From NCBI GenBank assembly GCA_951813535.1, contig OX638345.1, positions 1,439,029 through 1,503,028 on the forward strand: DNA of 64,000 bases. The letters run 5' to 3'. Each line of letters opens with the position of its first letter. Within the stretch, counting starts at the first letter, position 1. A program made the position numbers and the translations under genes. This document shows, piece by piece, positions 44,717 to 51,970 of this stretch. The notes below the pieces were generated by a model. It had not been told where the DNA came from and did not search any database. It saw nothing but the letters and a program-made list of their open reading frames with translations. Source of the DNA: an uncultured Dehalococcoidia bacterium (GTDB taxonomy: Bacteria; Chloroflexota; Dehalococcoidia; Lucifugimonadales; UBA3495).

Positions 44717-44840
44717 TCAACCGAGGCGCGCACACTGGCCACGGCGATTGTAGCAAATCTATGGGTGGTGCTTTATCATTAATGTTGCGGTCGAACGGTG
44801 GGCAGGTCGTGCCGTGCTCTGGTGTTCGTCGCGCGTTCCA

Positions 44841-45833
44841 ATGGCATCCATCAGCATCAGCACACCATCGGACGCCGAACGTCGGCGCGGACCAACCTGG
44901 TTACAGGGATTGGCCACGGCTACGGTGATCTGGGTATTTGTGTTGGTGATTATTGGCGGGGTGGTGCGAGTTACGGAATCCGGCCTCGGCTGCCCTGACT
45001 GGCCTTTGTGCTACGGCAAGTTGCTGCCGCCGCTTGAGTTCACGGCGATCATCGAATACACCCACCGTTTCGTGGCGTCGGTCATCGTCGGACCGCTGGT
45101 GCTGGTCACTGCGGTGGTCGGCATCGCCCGCTACCGGACCGACCGGTGGGTGTGGATCCCGGCTGCCGTGTCGGTGCCGCTGTTGGTCGTACAGGGTCTT
45201 CTGGGCGGGGTCACCGTGCTGACCCATTTGCCGGGCGGTATCGTCGCGCTGCACCTGGCCACTGCGGAAGCGTTGTTGGCGACGTGCGTGCTCATAATGG
45301 TGGCGTCCTACCGCACGCCGATCTATCCGACCGCTGCGCGGTCCTCCAGCGATAGCTACCACCGCTGGGCAATCGTTGGCGCGTCGAGCGTATACGCGGT
45401 GATCGTGAGCGGCGCGCTGGTGACGGCCATGGGTGCCACCGTGGCTTGCGTCTCGTGGCCTCTTTGCCACCAGGGACAGGCTTTTCCGATTAGCCACCTG
45501 TCGGCGGTTCACATGTTCCACCGCTACGTGGTGCTGGTCCTGGGATTGCTGCTGCTCTACGCGGCCTGGCGCTGCTGGAACGGCCCGGCAGAGCGAGGGG
45601 CGACCCTGAAGTGGCTGGCCGTGCTGACCGTGGCAACGTTCATCCTGCAGGTCGTGGTCGGGGCGGCAACCATTTGGCTGGACTTCCAGGCCCATTGGCG
45701 GGCTTTGCACCTGGCGGCGGCAACGGCGGTGTGGACGGCGGCGGCGGGCATGGCCATCGTTGCCTATCTTGATGTGCGTACAACCAATTCCGGACCGGAG
45801 TTGAACCGGCAAGCGGTGCAGGATGGCCAGTAG
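44841..45833 (+). CDS. ctaA: Heme A synthase CtaA
   Basis: CtaA oxidises the C8 methyl of heme O to give heme A for the cytochrome oxidase. The 330-residue protein has eight helices in two related halves. The first holds VVRVTESGLGCPDWPLCYGK with the conserved cysteine pair and then IEYTHRFVAS; the second holds GATVACVSWPLCHQG and HMFHRYVV. The histidines of both halves are heme ligands. ATG 44841 (MASISIST) is chosen; upstream codons overlap no ribosome site. It overlaps ctaB by 11 bases. Confidence 0.92.
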   Translation: MASISISTPSDAERRRGPTWLQGLATATVIWVFVLVIIGGVVRVTESGLGCPDWPLCYGKLLPPLEFTAIIEYTHRFVASVIVGPLVLVTAVVGIARYRTDRWVWIPAAVSVPLLVVQGLLGGVTVLTHLPGGIVALHLATAEALLATCVLIMVASYRTPIYPTAARSSSDSYHRWAIVGASSVYAVIVSGALVTAMGATVACVSWPLCHQGQAFPISHLSAVHMFHRYVVLVLGLLLLYAAWRCWNGPAERGATLKWLAVLTVATFILQVVVGAATIWLDFQAHWRALHLAAATAVWTAAAGMAIVAYLDVRTTNSGPELNRQAVQDGQ

Positions 45834-46785
45834 CGCGCCCGGGTTCCGGCCTGAGGGCGAGGCGACCGAACCAGAAGCTTCAGCGTTGGATGCGGCTACC
45901 TCCAGAAATGCGTCGGTAGTAGCCATAGCGCGCGACTTCCTGGCGCTGACCAAGCCCAAGATCATCTCGCTGCTGCTGGTGACCGCGGCCGGCGGGATGT
46001 TCCTGGCGGAGCAGGGAGTGCCTTCCCTGGCGCTGTTGGGCCTGGTCTGGGCGGGCGGCGCCCTGGCCTCCGGTGGGGCCAACGCGGTCAACCATTTCCT
46101 GGACCGGGACATCGACCGGGATATGCGGCGGACGCAGGGGCGGCCGGTGGCGGGTTTGCGAGTCGCGCCCCGTTACGCGCTGGCGTTTGGCGTGGCCCTC
46201 AATATTGCGGCGTTTGCGCTGCTGGCCACGCAGGTCAACCTGCTGGCGGCCGTCCTGACCCTGTGCGCCAGCCTGTTCTACGTGTTCATCTACACGCTGT
46301 GGTTGAAACGAACCACGCCCAACAACATCGTCATTGGCGGAGCCGCCGGCGCCATCCCGCCGATGGTGGGCTGGGCTGCGGTTACCGGAGGTTTGGACCT
46401 GCCGGCGGTTTACCTGTTCGCCATCGTCTTCTTCTGGACGCCTCCCCATTTCTGGGCTCTGTCCCTCCTGATCCAAACCGACTACGAGAGGGCGGGCGTG
46501 CCCATGCTGCCGGTGGTGTCGTCGCGCCAGCAAACGGCGTTGCATATCTTCCTTTATTCCATCGCGCTGACCGGTCTGACTCTCATGTTCGGCCTGCTGC
46601 CGCAGGTGGGGCTGATCTACGTGGCATCGGCGGCCGCTCTGGGAGCGCCCTTTATCTGGCTGGCCTGCAGGCTTTGGCGCCGCGACAACCGGGGCCGAGC
46701 AAAGGCGACCTACCTGTATTCGTTGGCCTACCTTGCCCTGCTCTTCGTGGCCGTTATGGTAGATAGCGCGGTAGGGTTCGCCTAG
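45823..46785 (+). CDS. ctaB: Protoheme IX farnesyltransferase CtaB
   Basis: CtaB adds a farnesyl group to heme B, forming heme O. The 320-residue UbiA-fold membrane protein has the two polyprenyl-diphosphate-binding blocks: NAVNHFLDRDIDRDMRRTQGRP (asp-rich) and a second at QTDYERAGVPMLPVV. LTKPKIISLLLVTA precedes helix 1. It overlaps ctaA by 11 bases and is followed by the structural oxidase genes, so heme and apoprotein supply are linked. Confidence 0.94.
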   Translation: MASSAPGFRPEGEATEPEASALDAATSRNASVVAIARDFLALTKPKIISLLLVTAAGGMFLAEQGVPSLALLGLVWAGGALASGGANAVNHFLDRDIDRDMRRTQGRPVAGLRVAPRYALAFGVALNIAAFALLATQVNLLAAVLTLCASLFYVFIYTLWLKRTTPNNIVIGGAAGAIPPMVGWAAVTGGLDLPAVYLFAIVFFWTPPHFWALSLLIQTDYERAGVPMLPVVSSRQQTALHIFLYSIALTGLTLMFGLLPQVGLIYVASAAALGAPFIWLACRLWRRDNRGRAKATYLYSLAYLALLFVAVMVDSAVGFA

Positions 46786-46855: not shown

Positions 46856-46921
46856 TACCGCCGCTAGTGAAATTTTGCACATACTGTGGCTGGCCGCTGC
46901 CGCAGTATCCGGGGGTTCACG

Positions 46922-48295
46922 ATGGGGCAGTTGCCCTTTGCAGAGGAAGATTCACCCAACGAGCGCCGCGCCGCATCCGCGCCCCGAGCAGTAAGTGATA
47001 TTCCAGTGAACCCCGCCTCCGACACTTCTCCCCGCCGTTTGGGACGGCGTTCTCTTGTAACGCTGGCCCTGCTGGGCGGTGTCCTGTTCCTGGCGGCCCT
47101 GGGCTGTGACGCCGAAGCCCACCAGTCCATTCTGAGTTCCACCCCGTGGACTCTGGACGGCGTCGGCGGCCCTGTGGCGCGCGAGCAGTTGCTGTTGTTC
47201 AACGTGCTGCTGTGGACCATGGTGGTCGTGTTCGTCCTGGTCGAGGGAGCGCTGCTCTACGCGGCGATCCGCTTCCGCCGGAAGCCGGGTGATCCCCTTC
47301 CGCCGCAGACCCACGGGCATACCCCGCTGGAAATCGCCTGGACCATCGTACCGACCATCCTCATCCTGGGATTGGGTGTATGGTCGGTGATCGTGCTGTT
47401 CAAGCTCGAACCGGGTGAGGCGATCGCGCTGGCCCAGGCCGAAGGCAAAGAGCCGGTGCGCGTGGAAGCGGTGGGGCACCAGTGGTGGTGGGAGTTCCGC
47501 TACGAGGACCCTCTCCCCGGCGATGAAGCCACCAAGCTCGTTACCACAGCCAACGAGATGCGCGTGCCGGTGAACACCCCCATTATCATGGATCTCAAGA
47601 GCGACGACGTGATCCACAGTTTCTGGATCCCCAAACTCGCCGGCAAGCAGGACGTGGTTCCGACCAAGACCAACTCGATGTGGTTCCTGGCTGAAGAAAC
47701 CGGGATGTACTATGGCCAGTGCGCCGAATTCTGCGGTACCGCCCATGCGCAGATGAAATTCCGCGTCCACGTCATGGAGCATGCGGAGTACAAGGCTTGG
47801 GTTGAGAGCTTTGCCGAACCGGCGCAACTATCCGCCGATGCTGCCAGGGGCCAGTTGGTCTTCCTGGGGGACGGCCAGTGCGTGACCTGCCACACCGTCG
47901 GCGCATCCGACGTGGTGGATCCGGCAACCGGCGAGGGCGTGCAGCACGCCCGGATGCAAACGTTTGTCGAGTACACCAAGTGGCTGGCCAAGCGCGCCGA
48001 CGAGCGTCTCGAAGATGTCCGCACCGGCAACGAGCCTCCGACGGCATTTGCCGCGCCGAACCTTACCGACCTGAGCTGCCGTGTCACGCTGGGAGCCGGT
48101 ATCGTTGACCGCAACCGTGAGACCCTTCGGCAGTGGGTCCGTGATCCCGACAGTATCAAGCCCGGCAACCGCATGTCCGAACTCGCAGCCATTTACCAGA
48201 CCCGCCTGGACCATCGGGCGGATCTCACTGAGGCGCAACTGGGCGACCTGGTGGAATACCTGTCCGCACAGGGGCCCGATATCTGCCTTCAGTAG
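46922..48295 (+). CDS. ctaC: Cytochrome c oxidase subunit II with fused cytochrome c domain
   Basis: A 457-residue caa3-type subunit II. After an N-terminal signal/anchor (about residues 45-61) and two helices, the binuclear copper A site is complete: His232, Cys267, Glu269, Cys271, His275 and Met278, with the aromatic patch QWWWEF at 188-192. A C-terminal cytochrome c domain has the heme motif CVTCH (320-324). The insertion VDPATGEGVQHARMQTF after it is longer than usual. The domain takes electrons from a quinol-oxidising complex. ATG 46922 is chosen over an upstream in-frame codon. Confidence 0.94.
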   Translation: MGQLPFAEEDSPNERRAASAPRAVSDIPVNPASDTSPRRLGRRSLVTLALLGGVLFLAALGCDAEAHQSILSSTPWTLDGVGGPVAREQLLLFNVLLWTMVVVFVLVEGALLYAAIRFRRKPGDPLPPQTHGHTPLEIAWTIVPTILILGLGVWSVIVLFKLEPGEAIALAQAEGKEPVRVEAVGHQWWWEFRYEDPLPGDEATKLVTTANEMRVPVNTPIIMDLKSDDVIHSFWIPKLAGKQDVVPTKTNSMWFLAEETGMYYGQCAEFCGTAHAQMKFRVHVMEHAEYKAWVESFAEPAQLSADAARGQLVFLGDGQCVTCHTVGASDVVDPATGEGVQHARMQTFVEYTKWLAKRADERLEDVRTGNEPPTAFAAPNLTDLSCRVTLGAGIVDRNRETLRQWVRDPDSIKPGNRMSELAAIYQTRLDHRADLTEAQLGDLVEYLSAQGPDICLQ

Positions 48296-48397: not shown

Positions 48398-50269
48398 ATG
48401 GTAACCATAACCGGCGTCATACCCCGCCCCAGCACCTACACCGGGCTTTGGAGTTGGCTGACTACCGTCGACCACAAGCGCATCGGGGCGCTGTACGGCT
48501 TTTCCGCTTTCTTCTTCTTCATTATTGGCGGTATTGAAGCCGGGATCATGCGCATGCAGTTGGTCACTTCCGACAACTCGATGGTGTCGGCGGACTGGTT
48601 CAACGCCATGTTCACCATGCACGGCACCACCATGATTTTCATGGTGATCATGCCGTTCGGAGCCACCTTCTTCAACTTCCTGGTTCCGCTGATGATCGGC
48701 GCCCGGGACGTGGCCTTCCCACGCCTTAACGCCTTCTCGTACTGGACCTTCCTCTTTGGCGCGTTGCTGATGCATGCCGGCTTCCTGATCGGGCAAGTCC
48801 CCGACGCCGGCTGGTTCTCCTACGCCAACCTGACCGCCGCGCCGTTCAGCGAAGGCAAGGGCCTGGACTTCTGGGCGTTGAGCCTCCAGGTGCTGGGCGT
48901 CGCGTCACTGGCCGCAGGTTTCAACTTCGTGGTGACCATTATCAACATGCGGGCGCCGGGAATGTCGCTGATGCGGATGCCCGTGTTCATTTGGATGACG
49001 CTCGTGACCAGCATCCTCCTGGTGCTGGCTTTCCCGATCATCACGGTAGCATTGATTGAACTGACTGCGGATCGGCAGTTTGGCGCGAACTTCTTCAACA
49101 CCGCCGCGGGCGGCGACCCCATCCTTTGGCAGCACCTGTTCTGGCTGTTCGGTCATCCGGAGGTCTATATCCTCATTCTGCCGGCCATGGGCGTCGTTTC
49201 CGAGATCATCCCCACCTACAGCCGCAAACCTTTGTTTGGCTACCCTGTGGTCGTCTTCTCCGGCATCGTCATCGCCATCATGAGCTGGGCGGTCTGGAGC
49301 CACCACATGTTCACAGTGGGGCTGGGCCCCATTGCCAACTCGGTGTTCACCATAACCACCATGCTGATTGCCGTTCCCACCGGCGTGAAAATCTTCAACT
49401 GGGTCGGCACCATGTGGAACGGTTCCATCGACCTGAAGACGCCGATGCTCATGGCCATCGGGTTCGTGGCGTTGTTCATCGTGGGCGGACTTTCGGGCGT
49501 GTCGCATGCTGTGTCTCCGTCAGACTTCCAGCAGCAGGACACCTACTACATCGTCGCTCACATCCATTATGTGCTGTTTGGCGGCGCCATCTTCGGCATC
49601 TTCGCCGGCATCTACTACTGGTATCCGAAGATCACCGGCAAGATGTACAACGAGTTGCTGGGCAAAATTCACTTCTGGCTGATGTTCGTGGGCATGAACC
49701 TGACGTTCTTCCCCATGCACTACGCCGGGCTGAACGGAATGCCGCGCCGCATCTACACCTACGCCGAAGGGTTTGGCTGGGAAGGGATGAACCTGCTGGC
49801 GACCATCGGCTACTTCGTCATTGTGATTTCGCTGCTGATTTTCATCCACAACTTCTTCCGCAGCATCAAGAAGGGCGAAGAAGCCGGCCATGACCCGTGG
49901 GACGCTCCCACCCTGGAGTGGAGCATCTCGTCGCCGCCTCCGGTGTACAACTTCGCCGAGGTTCCCGTGGTACGCGGCCAGGACGCCTACTGGATCACCA
50001 AGCGTGAGGCCGCCGCACGCGGCGAGACCGTTCCGGCCGAGCCGCACGTCGATCCCAGCACCATCCACCTGCCCAGCCCTTCCTACTGGCCGCTGATCAC
50101 GTCGTTCGGCGTGGTGTGGATCGCGGGAGGACTGTTGATAGACGTGGGTTGGGATTACATCCGGTTCCCCATCAGTTTCGTTGGCGGCATCATCACCATC
50201 CTCGGTGTCATCGGCTGGTCCCTGGAGCCCCCAGCGGAAGAACACCACGAAGCGGCCGACCACCACTAA
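48398..50269 (+). CDS. ctaD: Cytochrome c oxidase subunit I
   Basis: The catalytic subunit of a heme-copper oxidase, 623 residues, twelve helices plus a C-terminal tail. Ligands and active-site marks include an early MHGTTMIF (heme a His), WLFGHPEVYILILP (copper B His with the cross-linked Tyr), WAVWSHHMFTVG (two copper B His) and HIHYVLFGG (heme a3 and heme a His). The HPEVY tyrosine makes it an A-type oxidase. The tail after residue 500 (SSPPPVYNF) adds two helices. It follows ctaC by 102 bases. Confidence 0.96.
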   Translation: MVTITGVIPRPSTYTGLWSWLTTVDHKRIGALYGFSAFFFFIIGGIEAGIMRMQLVTSDNSMVSADWFNAMFTMHGTTMIFMVIMPFGATFFNFLVPLMIGARDVAFPRLNAFSYWTFLFGALLMHAGFLIGQVPDAGWFSYANLTAAPFSEGKGLDFWALSLQVLGVASLAAGFNFVVTIINMRAPGMSLMRMPVFIWMTLVTSILLVLAFPIITVALIELTADRQFGANFFNTAAGGDPILWQHLFWLFGHPEVYILILPAMGVVSEIIPTYSRKPLFGYPVVVFSGIVIAIMSWAVWSHHMFTVGLGPIANSVFTITTMLIAVPTGVKIFNWVGTMWNGSIDLKTPMLMAIGFVALFIVGGLSGVSHAVSPSDFQQQDTYYIVAHIHYVLFGGAIFGIFAGIYYWYPKITGKMYNELLGKIHFWLMFVGMNLTFFPMHYAGLNGMPRRIYTYAEGFGWEGMNLLATIGYFVIVISLLIFIHNFFRSIKKGEEAGHDPWDAPTLEWSISSPPPVYNFAEVPVVRGQDAYWITKREAAARGETVPAEPHVDPSTIHLPSPSYWPLITSFGVVWIAGGLLIDVGWDYIRFPISFVGGIITILGVIGWSLEPPAEEHHEAADHH

Positions 50270-50323: not shown

Positions 50324-51013
50324 TTGGCTCACGCAGATACCACCCACGCCCCGCCGGCGCATCCGCCGGCACACGAGGAAGAGACCACCACCGGGATAAA
50401 TCACCGGAAACTCCTCATGTGGGTGTTTCTCGGTTCAGACTGTCTCTTCTTCGGCTCGCTGATCGCCACCTATATGGTGTACCGGGGCCAGAGCATCGTC
50501 GGTCCCTATCCCAGGGACATCATCGACGTTCCCATAACCACCGTCAGCACCTTCGTGCTCCTGATGAGTTCGTTCGCCATGGTGATGGGGGTTGCAGCCG
50601 CCCGCAACGGAAACCAAAAGCGCCTGATCCAGTGGCTGGTGCTGACGATCATATTGGGCGGCACATTTATCGGGTTCCAGGTTTATGAATTCAACCTGTT
50701 CCGCGTCGAAGGACTGCGCTACGAGACCAACCTTTTCAGCAGCACATTCTTCACGCTGACCGGTTTCCACGGCGCCCACGTTACCCTGGGTCTCGTCTGG
50801 CTCATTGCCCTGGCTATCATGGCGGCGCGCAACCCGGCCGGTCGGCCCTCGGACCTGGACGTGGACATCGCCGGACTGTACTGGCACTTCGTCGACATCG
50901 TCTGGATCGTGATTTTCACTCTGCTCTACCTTATCGGCGGATTTGACGGGCCTCCGGAAGCAGGCCACGCCGCGGTCCAGGGATGGAACTGGGTCACCGG
51001 TCTGATCAGCTAG
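50324..51013 (+). CDS. ctaE: Cytochrome c oxidase subunit III
   Basis: A 229-residue subunit III. After a His- and Pro-rich N-terminus there are about five helices with LLMWVFLGSDCLFFGSLIATYMVYRG, TGFHGAHVTLGLVW and GLYWHFVDIVWIVIFTLLYL, the family's hallmark end. The start is TTG 50324 with a strong AGGAGG at 50312-50317; no ATG fits. It stabilises subunit I and proton delivery. Confidence 0.93.
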   Translation: MAHADTTHAPPAHPPAHEEETTTGINHRKLLMWVFLGSDCLFFGSLIATYMVYRGQSIVGPYPRDIIDVPITTVSTFVLLMSSFAMVMGVAAARNGNQKRLIQWLVLTIILGGTFIGFQVYEFNLFRVEGLRYETNLFSSTFFTLTGFHGAHVTLGLVWLIALAIMAARNPAGRPSDLDVDIAGLYWHFVDIVWIVIFTLLYLIGGFDGPPEAGHAAVQGWNWVTGLIS

Positions 51014-51035
51014 GTTTCGAGGAGGCAACCACCAG

Positions 51036-51911
51036 ATGAGCACCAACCCCGGTCAGGAGGCTGTCTTGGCCCAGCAGGAGCACGCGGCCCACGAGGAACA
51101 CGCGGCTCACGAAGACGCGGGAATATCGCGGTTCTTCTTCGGCCACGTGCCGGAGGGCGTGCACGGCGGCATGAAGCAGTATGGCCTGCTGGCTATCTTC
51201 CTCGGCGTTATCACGCTGGTGGAATTCTTGATCATTGTCCCTGAGGGACTCCAGGGCAGCGGCGTCGTGATTGCTCCTCTGGTAATCCTGTCGGTCATCA
51301 AGTTCTTCTGCGTGGTCGCGTTCTTCATGCACCTGAAGTTCGAAAACCAGTTGCTGTGGCAAATTTTCGTAGCTGGCCTCGCCCTGGGTTTGGTGGTCGC
51401 GCTGTCCCTGGTGTTGCTGTTCGGCGTATTTCGACCGACCCCACGGGCGTTCTCCGAACCGCGGGTAGAACCCTTCGTGCATCACGCGCCTGCGGAGCAC
51501 GAGCCGGTGGCCCGGATGCTGCCCGAAGAGCTGCCCCCGCCGGCGGACCCCGCCGACCTGGCGCCACCCGCACCGGCCGGCGGAGCCGTGGCGGGCGCAT
51601 CTCCCGGCCAGACGCTTTTCATCGGCACCGCAGCTTGCGCGTCGTGCCATGCCATCCAGGGAGTTGCCCAGGGCGTGCTGGGGCCGCCCCTCGACGGGAT
51701 AGCGTCGGCCGCGGGCAATCGGATTTCGGGCTATTCGGCGGAAGACTACATCCGGGAATCGATAGTCGAGCCAGACGCGTACACAGCAGGAACTGCCGAT
51801 GGGCTTTCCCAGGACTACCAACAGGGGTTGATGAGCGCCACGATGGCCGGCATCCAGTTGACCGACGAAGATGTGGACGCACTGGTCGAGTACCTGTTGC
51901 AGTTGAGGTAG
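51036..51911 (+). CDS. Cytochrome c oxidase subunit IV fused to a C-terminal cytochrome c domain
   Basis: A 291-residue hybrid. Residues 1-35 are His/Ala/Glu-rich (two HAAHE repeats). Residues 45-131 are three helices of the caa3 subunit IV family, with MHLKFENQLLW. A Pro- and Ala-rich linker (about 150-190) leads to a class I cytochrome c domain with the heme motif CASCH (201-205), GPPLDGIA, and Met266 or Met270 as the likely axial ligand. Ordinary subunit IV is about 100-110 residues and carries no heme. The oxidase would then have two tethered cytochromes c, one here and one on subunit II. GGAGG precedes the ATG. Confidence 0.9.
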   Translation: MSTNPGQEAVLAQQEHAAHEEHAAHEDAGISRFFFGHVPEGVHGGMKQYGLLAIFLGVITLVEFLIIVPEGLQGSGVVIAPLVILSVIKFFCVVAFFMHLKFENQLLWQIFVAGLALGLVVALSLVLLFGVFRPTPRAFSEPRVEPFVHHAPAEHEPVARMLPEELPPPADPADLAPPAPAGGAVAGASPGQTLFIGTAACASCHAIQGVAQGVLGPPLDGIASAAGNRISGYSAEDYIRESIVEPDAYTAGTADGLSQDYQQGLMSATMAGIQLTDEDVDALVEYLLQLR

Positions 51912-51933
51912 GGTGACTGGGCAAATGACTATG

Positions 51934-51970
51934 CTTGGGGCAGCCGCGACGGCTGCCCCAAGTTTTTGTC
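51934..51970 (+). terminator. Intrinsic terminator of the cytochrome oxidase operon
   Basis: A 13-bp perfect stem, CTTGGGGCAGCCG (51934-51946) with CGGCTGCCCCAAG (51950-51962), has a 3-base loop and is followed by TTTTTGTC. It lies 22 bases after the subunit IV-cytochrome c stop. Confidence 0.9.

Follow-up and report, generated by a model that had tools for sequence, protein, structure and literature searches.

A cytochrome oxidase of the caa3 type, as known from Rhodothermus marinus and Thermus thermophilus, carries its only known tethered cytochrome on subunit II. In the 64,000-nucleotide stretch of DNA from an uncultured Dehalococcoidia bacterium that we analysed (the window), the subunit IV gene of such an oxidase departs from the small, cofactor-free norm and encodes a protein of 291 residues with a c-type heme site. 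What does an oxidase do with a second tethered cytochrome? An earlier sequence-only reading of this locus had proposed either a second point of electron entry or a relay. We favour the relay, in the form of a shuttle, while the second entry remains as its rival.

The fused gene in its operon

The cox operon is complete and of caa3 type, with the gene order ctaA-ctaB-coxB-coxA-coxC-coxD, in which the COX4_pro gene stands behind that for subunit III and the fused gene is last (Table 1). Subunit II matches TIGR02866 (198.9 bits, cut-off 147.7) and PF00034 (22.3 bits, cut-off 21.3); its CuA motif, CAEFCGTAHAQM, lies at 47720-47755, with CVTCH behind it at 47879-47893. Judged by subunits I and II, the oxidase is a caa3-type (A-family) enzyme, for which heme a and oxygen reduction are predicted. 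It shares with the R. marinus and T. thermophilus enzymes subunits I and III and a subunit II bearing both CuA and a cytochrome c, and differs from them in that subunit IV carries a further cytochrome. The genes ctaA and ctaB are separate and overlapping in the window; in several Chloroflexota families CtaA-CtaB reads as one fused ORF of 612-762 amino acids (L118 11182-13038, L124 1205-3067, L125 349-2220, L133 124-2412, L135 719-2557, L143 8063-9985).

The host genome is a single contig of 4.38 Mb in which the fused gene is single-copy. In a named collection its near relatives are MAGs labelled SAR202 cluster, Dehalococcoidia or Chloroflexi, the nearest by subunit I being 'SAR202 cluster bacterium bin87' (97% identical). 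The host belongs to the SAR202 group, a lineage widespread in the ocean.

Table 1. Features of the cox operon and of its fused subunit IV gene (window positions)
Feature	Position	Strand	Basis
ctaA, COX15/CtaA heme A synthase family	44814..45833	+	Pfam
ctaB, heme O synthase	45823..46785	+	profile matches
coxB, subunit II with CuA and its own cytochrome c	46886..48295	+	profile matches, motifs
coxA, subunit I	48398..50269	+	TIGR02891, 714.5 bits (cut-off 670.75)
coxC, subunit III	50324..51013	+	Pfam
AGGAGG ribosome-binding site, ten bases from the ATG	51020..51025	+	sequence
coxD-cytc, subunit IV fused to cytochrome c, 291 aa	51036..51911	+	ORF list, Pfam, relatives
Subunit IV three-helix part, residues 43-134	51162..51437	+	COX4_pro, alignments, hydropathy
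Pro-rich linker, residues 135-187, fastest-evolving part	51438..51596	+	dN/dS, composition
Class I cytochrome c domain, residues 188-291	51597..51908	+	Pfam, dN/dS, PDB matches
Heme c attachment site CASCH, C201-H205	51636..51650	+	sequence, alignments
M266, probable axial Met ligand	51831..51833	+	conservation
Terminator-like hairpin and T run, operon end	51933..51967	+	1 found against 0.2 expected

The fusion that the sequence-only reading had described, with its helices, Pro-rich linker, CASCH site, Met and ribosome site, is confirmed by the sequence, by Pfam and by conservation. One unbroken frame runs from an ATG start through both domains: COX4_pro (PF03626) covers residues 54-121 (32.4 bits, cut-off 28.9) and Cytochrom_C (PF00034) residues 189-290 (43.9 bits, cut-off 21.3). 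Hydropathy gives three hydrophobic helices, and the alignments conserve H43, E63, K89 and MHLKF in the subunit IV part. An AlphaFold model made from the 14-row alignment has a mean pLDDT of 50, and DSSP on this low-confidence model places the helices at 45-67, 76-99 and 105-131. Three helices, combined with a predicted N-in orientation, would put the C-terminus on the periplasmic side. The oxidase thus has two c-type sites on tethered domains, CVTCH on subunit II and CASCH on subunit IV, as had been proposed. The candidate Met ligand is conserved: M266 is the same in all 14 rows of the genus alignment, where the other Met, M270, varies.

Fourteen prolines fall within residues 132-187. Within the genus, dN/dS is 0.03-0.12 for the helices (finite in 13 of 13 relatives), 0.10-0.48 for the linker (10 of 13) and 0.03-0.20 for the cytochrome domain (11 of 13). 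Purifying selection acts on the cytochrome domain, and the pattern as a whole is what one would expect of a globular domain kept conserved at the end of a loose arm. The cytochrome domain of the R. marinus caa3 oxidase (1w2l) matches the profile of the fused proteins (E 1.4e-11). The domain resembles several monoheme families, so the donor cannot be named from the sequence.

Cytochrome and blue-copper domains on one subunit

The fusion recurs across the order of Chloroflexota to which the host belongs. Sequence search and fetched loci together place it in at least 39 of 250 genomes, comprising at least 31 of the 50 in the host's family and at least eight from families f12, f4 and f24 (in one genome, G035, it became visible when the locus was fetched). 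It persists in the same frame down to 36-40% identity, and 39 of the 40 loci classed as cytochrome-bearing have CxxCH as well as a ligand-loop Met, the 40th having ambiguous letters. Three further single-contig genomes (G192, G193 and G224) contain it. Outside the order, one clear fused locus was fetched, L131 of genome G262; G711 of the class sample has a match over 4-221 with one stop inside, and G768 has one over 14-154 in a frame of 259 amino acids. A scan of one contig collection found fusions solely in Chloroflexota-titled records (13 of 28 loci, L031-L043), together with 10 Bacteroidia loci in which subunit IV and a cytochrome-bearing subunit II are separate neighbours. Most other sampled families of the order have a plain subunit IV and no extra carrier as its neighbour; since so many relatives in the order have an unfused subunit IV, the arm is not required for this type of enzyme.

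The combination of subunit IV with a cytochrome is already in the literature as one table row: Table A3 of PMC8756737 (2022) lists a Chloroflexi 'C1' cytochrome in ORFs with COX IV under two accessions, which, going by the table's description, have the same pair of domains as the fused gene. That paper concerns nitrite reductase, and its available text gives the fusion this one row, with no function, operon, distribution or copper version.

Some relatives have a different domain in the same place. Seven subunit IV loci of sister genera and one of family f36 (L106) have a long C-terminus that lacks CxxCH. We considered a degenerate cytochrome here and rejected it, as reading of the sequence and Pfam gave a cupredoxin: all five such proteins scanned match Copper-bind (PF00127, the plastocyanin/azurin family) with 35-104 bits (cut-off 21.2). 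The copper ligands H186, C249, H254 and M258 are invariant in seven aligned rows, and ligands are found in all 12 copper-type loci (eight by a four-ligand pattern, four by eye for Cys, His and Met). The cupredoxin domain presumably binds copper, as the cytochrome domain presumably binds heme. The nearest solved structure is auracyanin A (2aan, E 2.2e-35), a blue-copper protein of Chloroflexus. Auracyanin is a separate protein; the copper domain of the sister genera is part of an oxidase subunit. The subunit IV of one genome, G221 (L093 6977-8188), has two cupredoxin domains in tandem according to Pfam.

A profile search found full-length copper fusions in 15 of the 250 genomes of the order, 14 of them in the host's family (genera g9, g12, g13 and g16) and one in f36. 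The 50 genomes of the family thus divide into at least 31 with a cytochrome, 14 with a cupredoxin and five (G195, G200, G205, G207 and G212) with no subunit IV among the matches listed; among these matches, every subunit IV detected in the family bears a carrier. The host's own genome gave no match to Copper-bind. Across 400 genomes of the phylum no copper fusion was found outside the order at E 1e-35, and 12 of the 400 match the cupredoxin side only. Since sister genera have blue copper in the same slot, the cytochrome of this subunit IV represents one form of a more general tethering of carriers. The appended domain is, as far as sequence can tell, interchangeable, either a cytochrome c or a blue-copper domain at the same C-terminus. 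A literature search largely without subscription papers and bioRxiv preprints turned up neither the copper version nor carrier swapping.

The distribution of the two carriers does not follow the oxidase. A quick tree of subunit I from the 91 loci with a subunit IV state and at least 480 residues of subunit I (L139, L044, L144 and L123 have long branches) requires four changes of the copper label, four being forced by starred branches, and seven of the cytochrome label, at least four being forced. In a more careful tree of the family (36 rows, eight near-copies left out), starred branches force at least three changes for either label. The copper rows formed one clade in none of 200 bootstrap trees, and constraining them to do so was rejected (AU p = 0.001). 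Genus g17 (L089, L098) has a cytochrome carrier, yet its oxidase is placed among those of the copper type. On a tree of cytochrome domains, the g17 domain stands apart from the other subunit IV cytochromes and groups with the second subunit II domains of family f27 and with subunit II domains of Bacteroidota (starred, 97 and 99). This grouping is the sole support for a separate origin that we take from that tree, which has 123 columns, 120 rows, SH-aLRT values only and many open forks, and which retains three of the Bacteroidota loci and leaves out nine loci that are near-copies or ambiguous. Weak forks place the domain of G262 among those of subunit II. The subunit I tree by itself would be compatible with gain or loss; the simplest reading is that g17 acquired its own cytochrome, and at least one subunit IV cytochrome looks independently acquired. 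A tree of cupredoxin domains, built without free cupredoxins, gave no resolved branching, and we claim no origin from it.

Proposed route of electrons and competing readings

The host genome has an operon for alternative complex III (ACIII), with ActA (five CxxCH) and ActE (L203), about 1 Mb from the cox operon, and cytochrome c maturation genes lie behind it (names of ACIII subunits and maturation genes were assigned by eye). This operon also has two ActD-like ORFs in tandem (L203 9365-10454), and a small further cytochrome c lies behind ActE. The bc1-type cytochrome b family gave no match in the host genome. ActB occurs in 48 of the family's 50 genomes, and every one of the 14 copper-type genomes has it; cytochrome b is absent from 48 of the 50. 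Matches to cytochrome b (PF00033) occur in G186 (C18:618-1184) and G218 (C26:11089-11634); these genomes have recorded contamination of 7% and 5%, so the matches may lie on foreign contigs. Subunit II keeps its CxxCH in every locus for which it was fetched, 34 of the cytochrome type and 12 of the copper type, and the strict CuA-plus-CxxCH pattern is found in 32 and 12 of these, respectively. ACIII, its ActE or ActA, and the subunit II cytochrome would fit as partners of the subunit IV carrier.

We suggest that subunit IV probably tethers a mobile carrier between ACIII and the subunit II/CuA side of the oxidase. Its periplasmic C-terminus would bear a flexible arm ending in the cytochrome c, and the oxidase would in this way bring its own mobile electron carrier. 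The carrier would most likely take electrons from ACIII (ActE or ActA) and deliver them to subunit II's cytochrome c, from which they would pass to CuA and the oxygen-reducing site. Electrons would thus run from quinol through ACIII and the subunit IV carrier to subunit II, and no soluble carrier would be involved. What the sequences show is the genes, their ligands, their conservation and the swaps; the side of the membrane, the cofactor loading, the direction of flow and the partners are our inference. A wider proposal, to which we lean with somewhat less assurance, is that subunit IV acts as an evolutionary socket, into which cytochromes c of at least two lineages and, separately, a blue-copper protein have been inserted and then exchanged several times; electrons would thus pass from ACIII to oxygen with no freely diffusing carrier. 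The arrangement suggests that the oxidase keeps its electron supplier on a leash.

Elements of this route are known elsewhere. In the available text of the sources, ActE donates to the caa3 oxidase in Rhodothermus (PMC5928083, PMC8552683), and in Roseiflexus auracyanin receives electrons from ActE (PMC8552683). For the ACIII-aa3 supercomplex of Flavobacterium johnsoniae, a mobile, membrane-anchored heme domain of ActA has been proposed as the shuttle from ACIII to the oxidase (PMC8552683); the mobile domain there belongs to the donor complex, whereas here a comparable domain belongs to the oxidase. The same source describes electron passage from ACIII to oxidase as still under study (PMC8552683).

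The domain could instead be an entry point, parallel to subunit II, for electrons from another donor such as a periplasmic dehydrogenase; an oxidase with a tethered carrier on each of the two subunits would permit this. We regard this as unlikely. PF00034 has just four matches in the whole host genome: the fused gene, two cytochromes that lie within the ACIII operon or behind it, and a free cytochrome c (G000:C1:715879). The free one, a point against the tethered shuttle, could also serve as the carrier. Copper or heme fills the same slot within genomes that share ACIII, and the path from subunit IV to CuA would still run through or past subunit II. The presence of ACIII, the absence of cytochrome b and the scarcity of other class I cytochromes c favour a relay or shuttle, as does the swap between unrelated folds, which fits a mobile donor.

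That swap also bears on a static role, in which the domain would be a fixed bridge or clamp of an ACIII-oxidase supercomplex and its heme a link in a stationary wire. Such supercomplexes have been reported in Rhodothermus and Flavobacterium (available text of PMC5928083 and PMC8552683), and a host with ACIII and no detected cytochrome b would suit one. However, an all-helical cytochrome and a beta-barrel cupredoxin that replace each other can hardly share fixed contacts, and the linker is long and fast-evolving. We therefore hold a fixed bridge to be distinctly improbable and prefer the mobile donor.

The relatives amount to a natural domain-swap experiment, with a heme or a copper protein at the same site of the same oxidase. 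For this reason the idea of a shuttle can be put to a direct test that needs two small domains and a single subunit. It also follows that a usually accessory subunit can carry a redox centre. The membrane-tethered cytochrome cy and CcoP-cytochrome cy (6xkw, 6xkx) are likewise cytochrome c donors held at the membrane, and in 6xkx the cytochrome is covalently joined to an oxidase subunit, albeit a different subunit of a cbb3 oxidase. The CcoP-cytochrome cy fusion in 6xkx is engineered; the fusion described here, unlike that construct, is natural and conserved.

Other placements of an extra carrier

The chance that the fusion is an artefact of assembly or annotation, two neighbouring genes read as one, is negligible: separate adjacent genes do occur at L129 and L130, in two genomes from a different family, but the host genome is a single contig, at least 39 of 250 genomes have the same fusion, the single-contig G192, G193 and G224 among them, and selection on the cytochrome domain is purifying. 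The sequence-only reading had named such separate genes in relatives as a sign of an assembly join; they were found in distant relatives only, G557 and G370 of family f47 in the same class. There the gene for a lipoprotein-like cytochrome c follows a normal, unfused subunit IV gene at distances of 10 and 1 bp, and looks like the unfused counterpart of the fusion, not like a sign of mis-assembly in the host genome.

Further arrangements place an extra carrier near the oxidase, which thus recurs by different routes. No free cytochrome c gene stands behind the fused gene of the window; four congeners have a lipoprotein-like one 2-30 bp behind theirs (L036 6861-7355, L037 6873-7400, L039 6864-7337, L040 6863-7408). 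In f71 (L133-L135) a gene of this lipoprotein-like kind lies 1.0-1.7 kb behind an unfused subunit IV gene. In f27 it is subunit II that has two CxxCH, in four fetched loci (L109 10147-11619, L110 2613-4088, L111 7023-8474, L140 10742-12232), and Pfam finds two cytochrome c domains in the one f27 protein scanned, that of L109.
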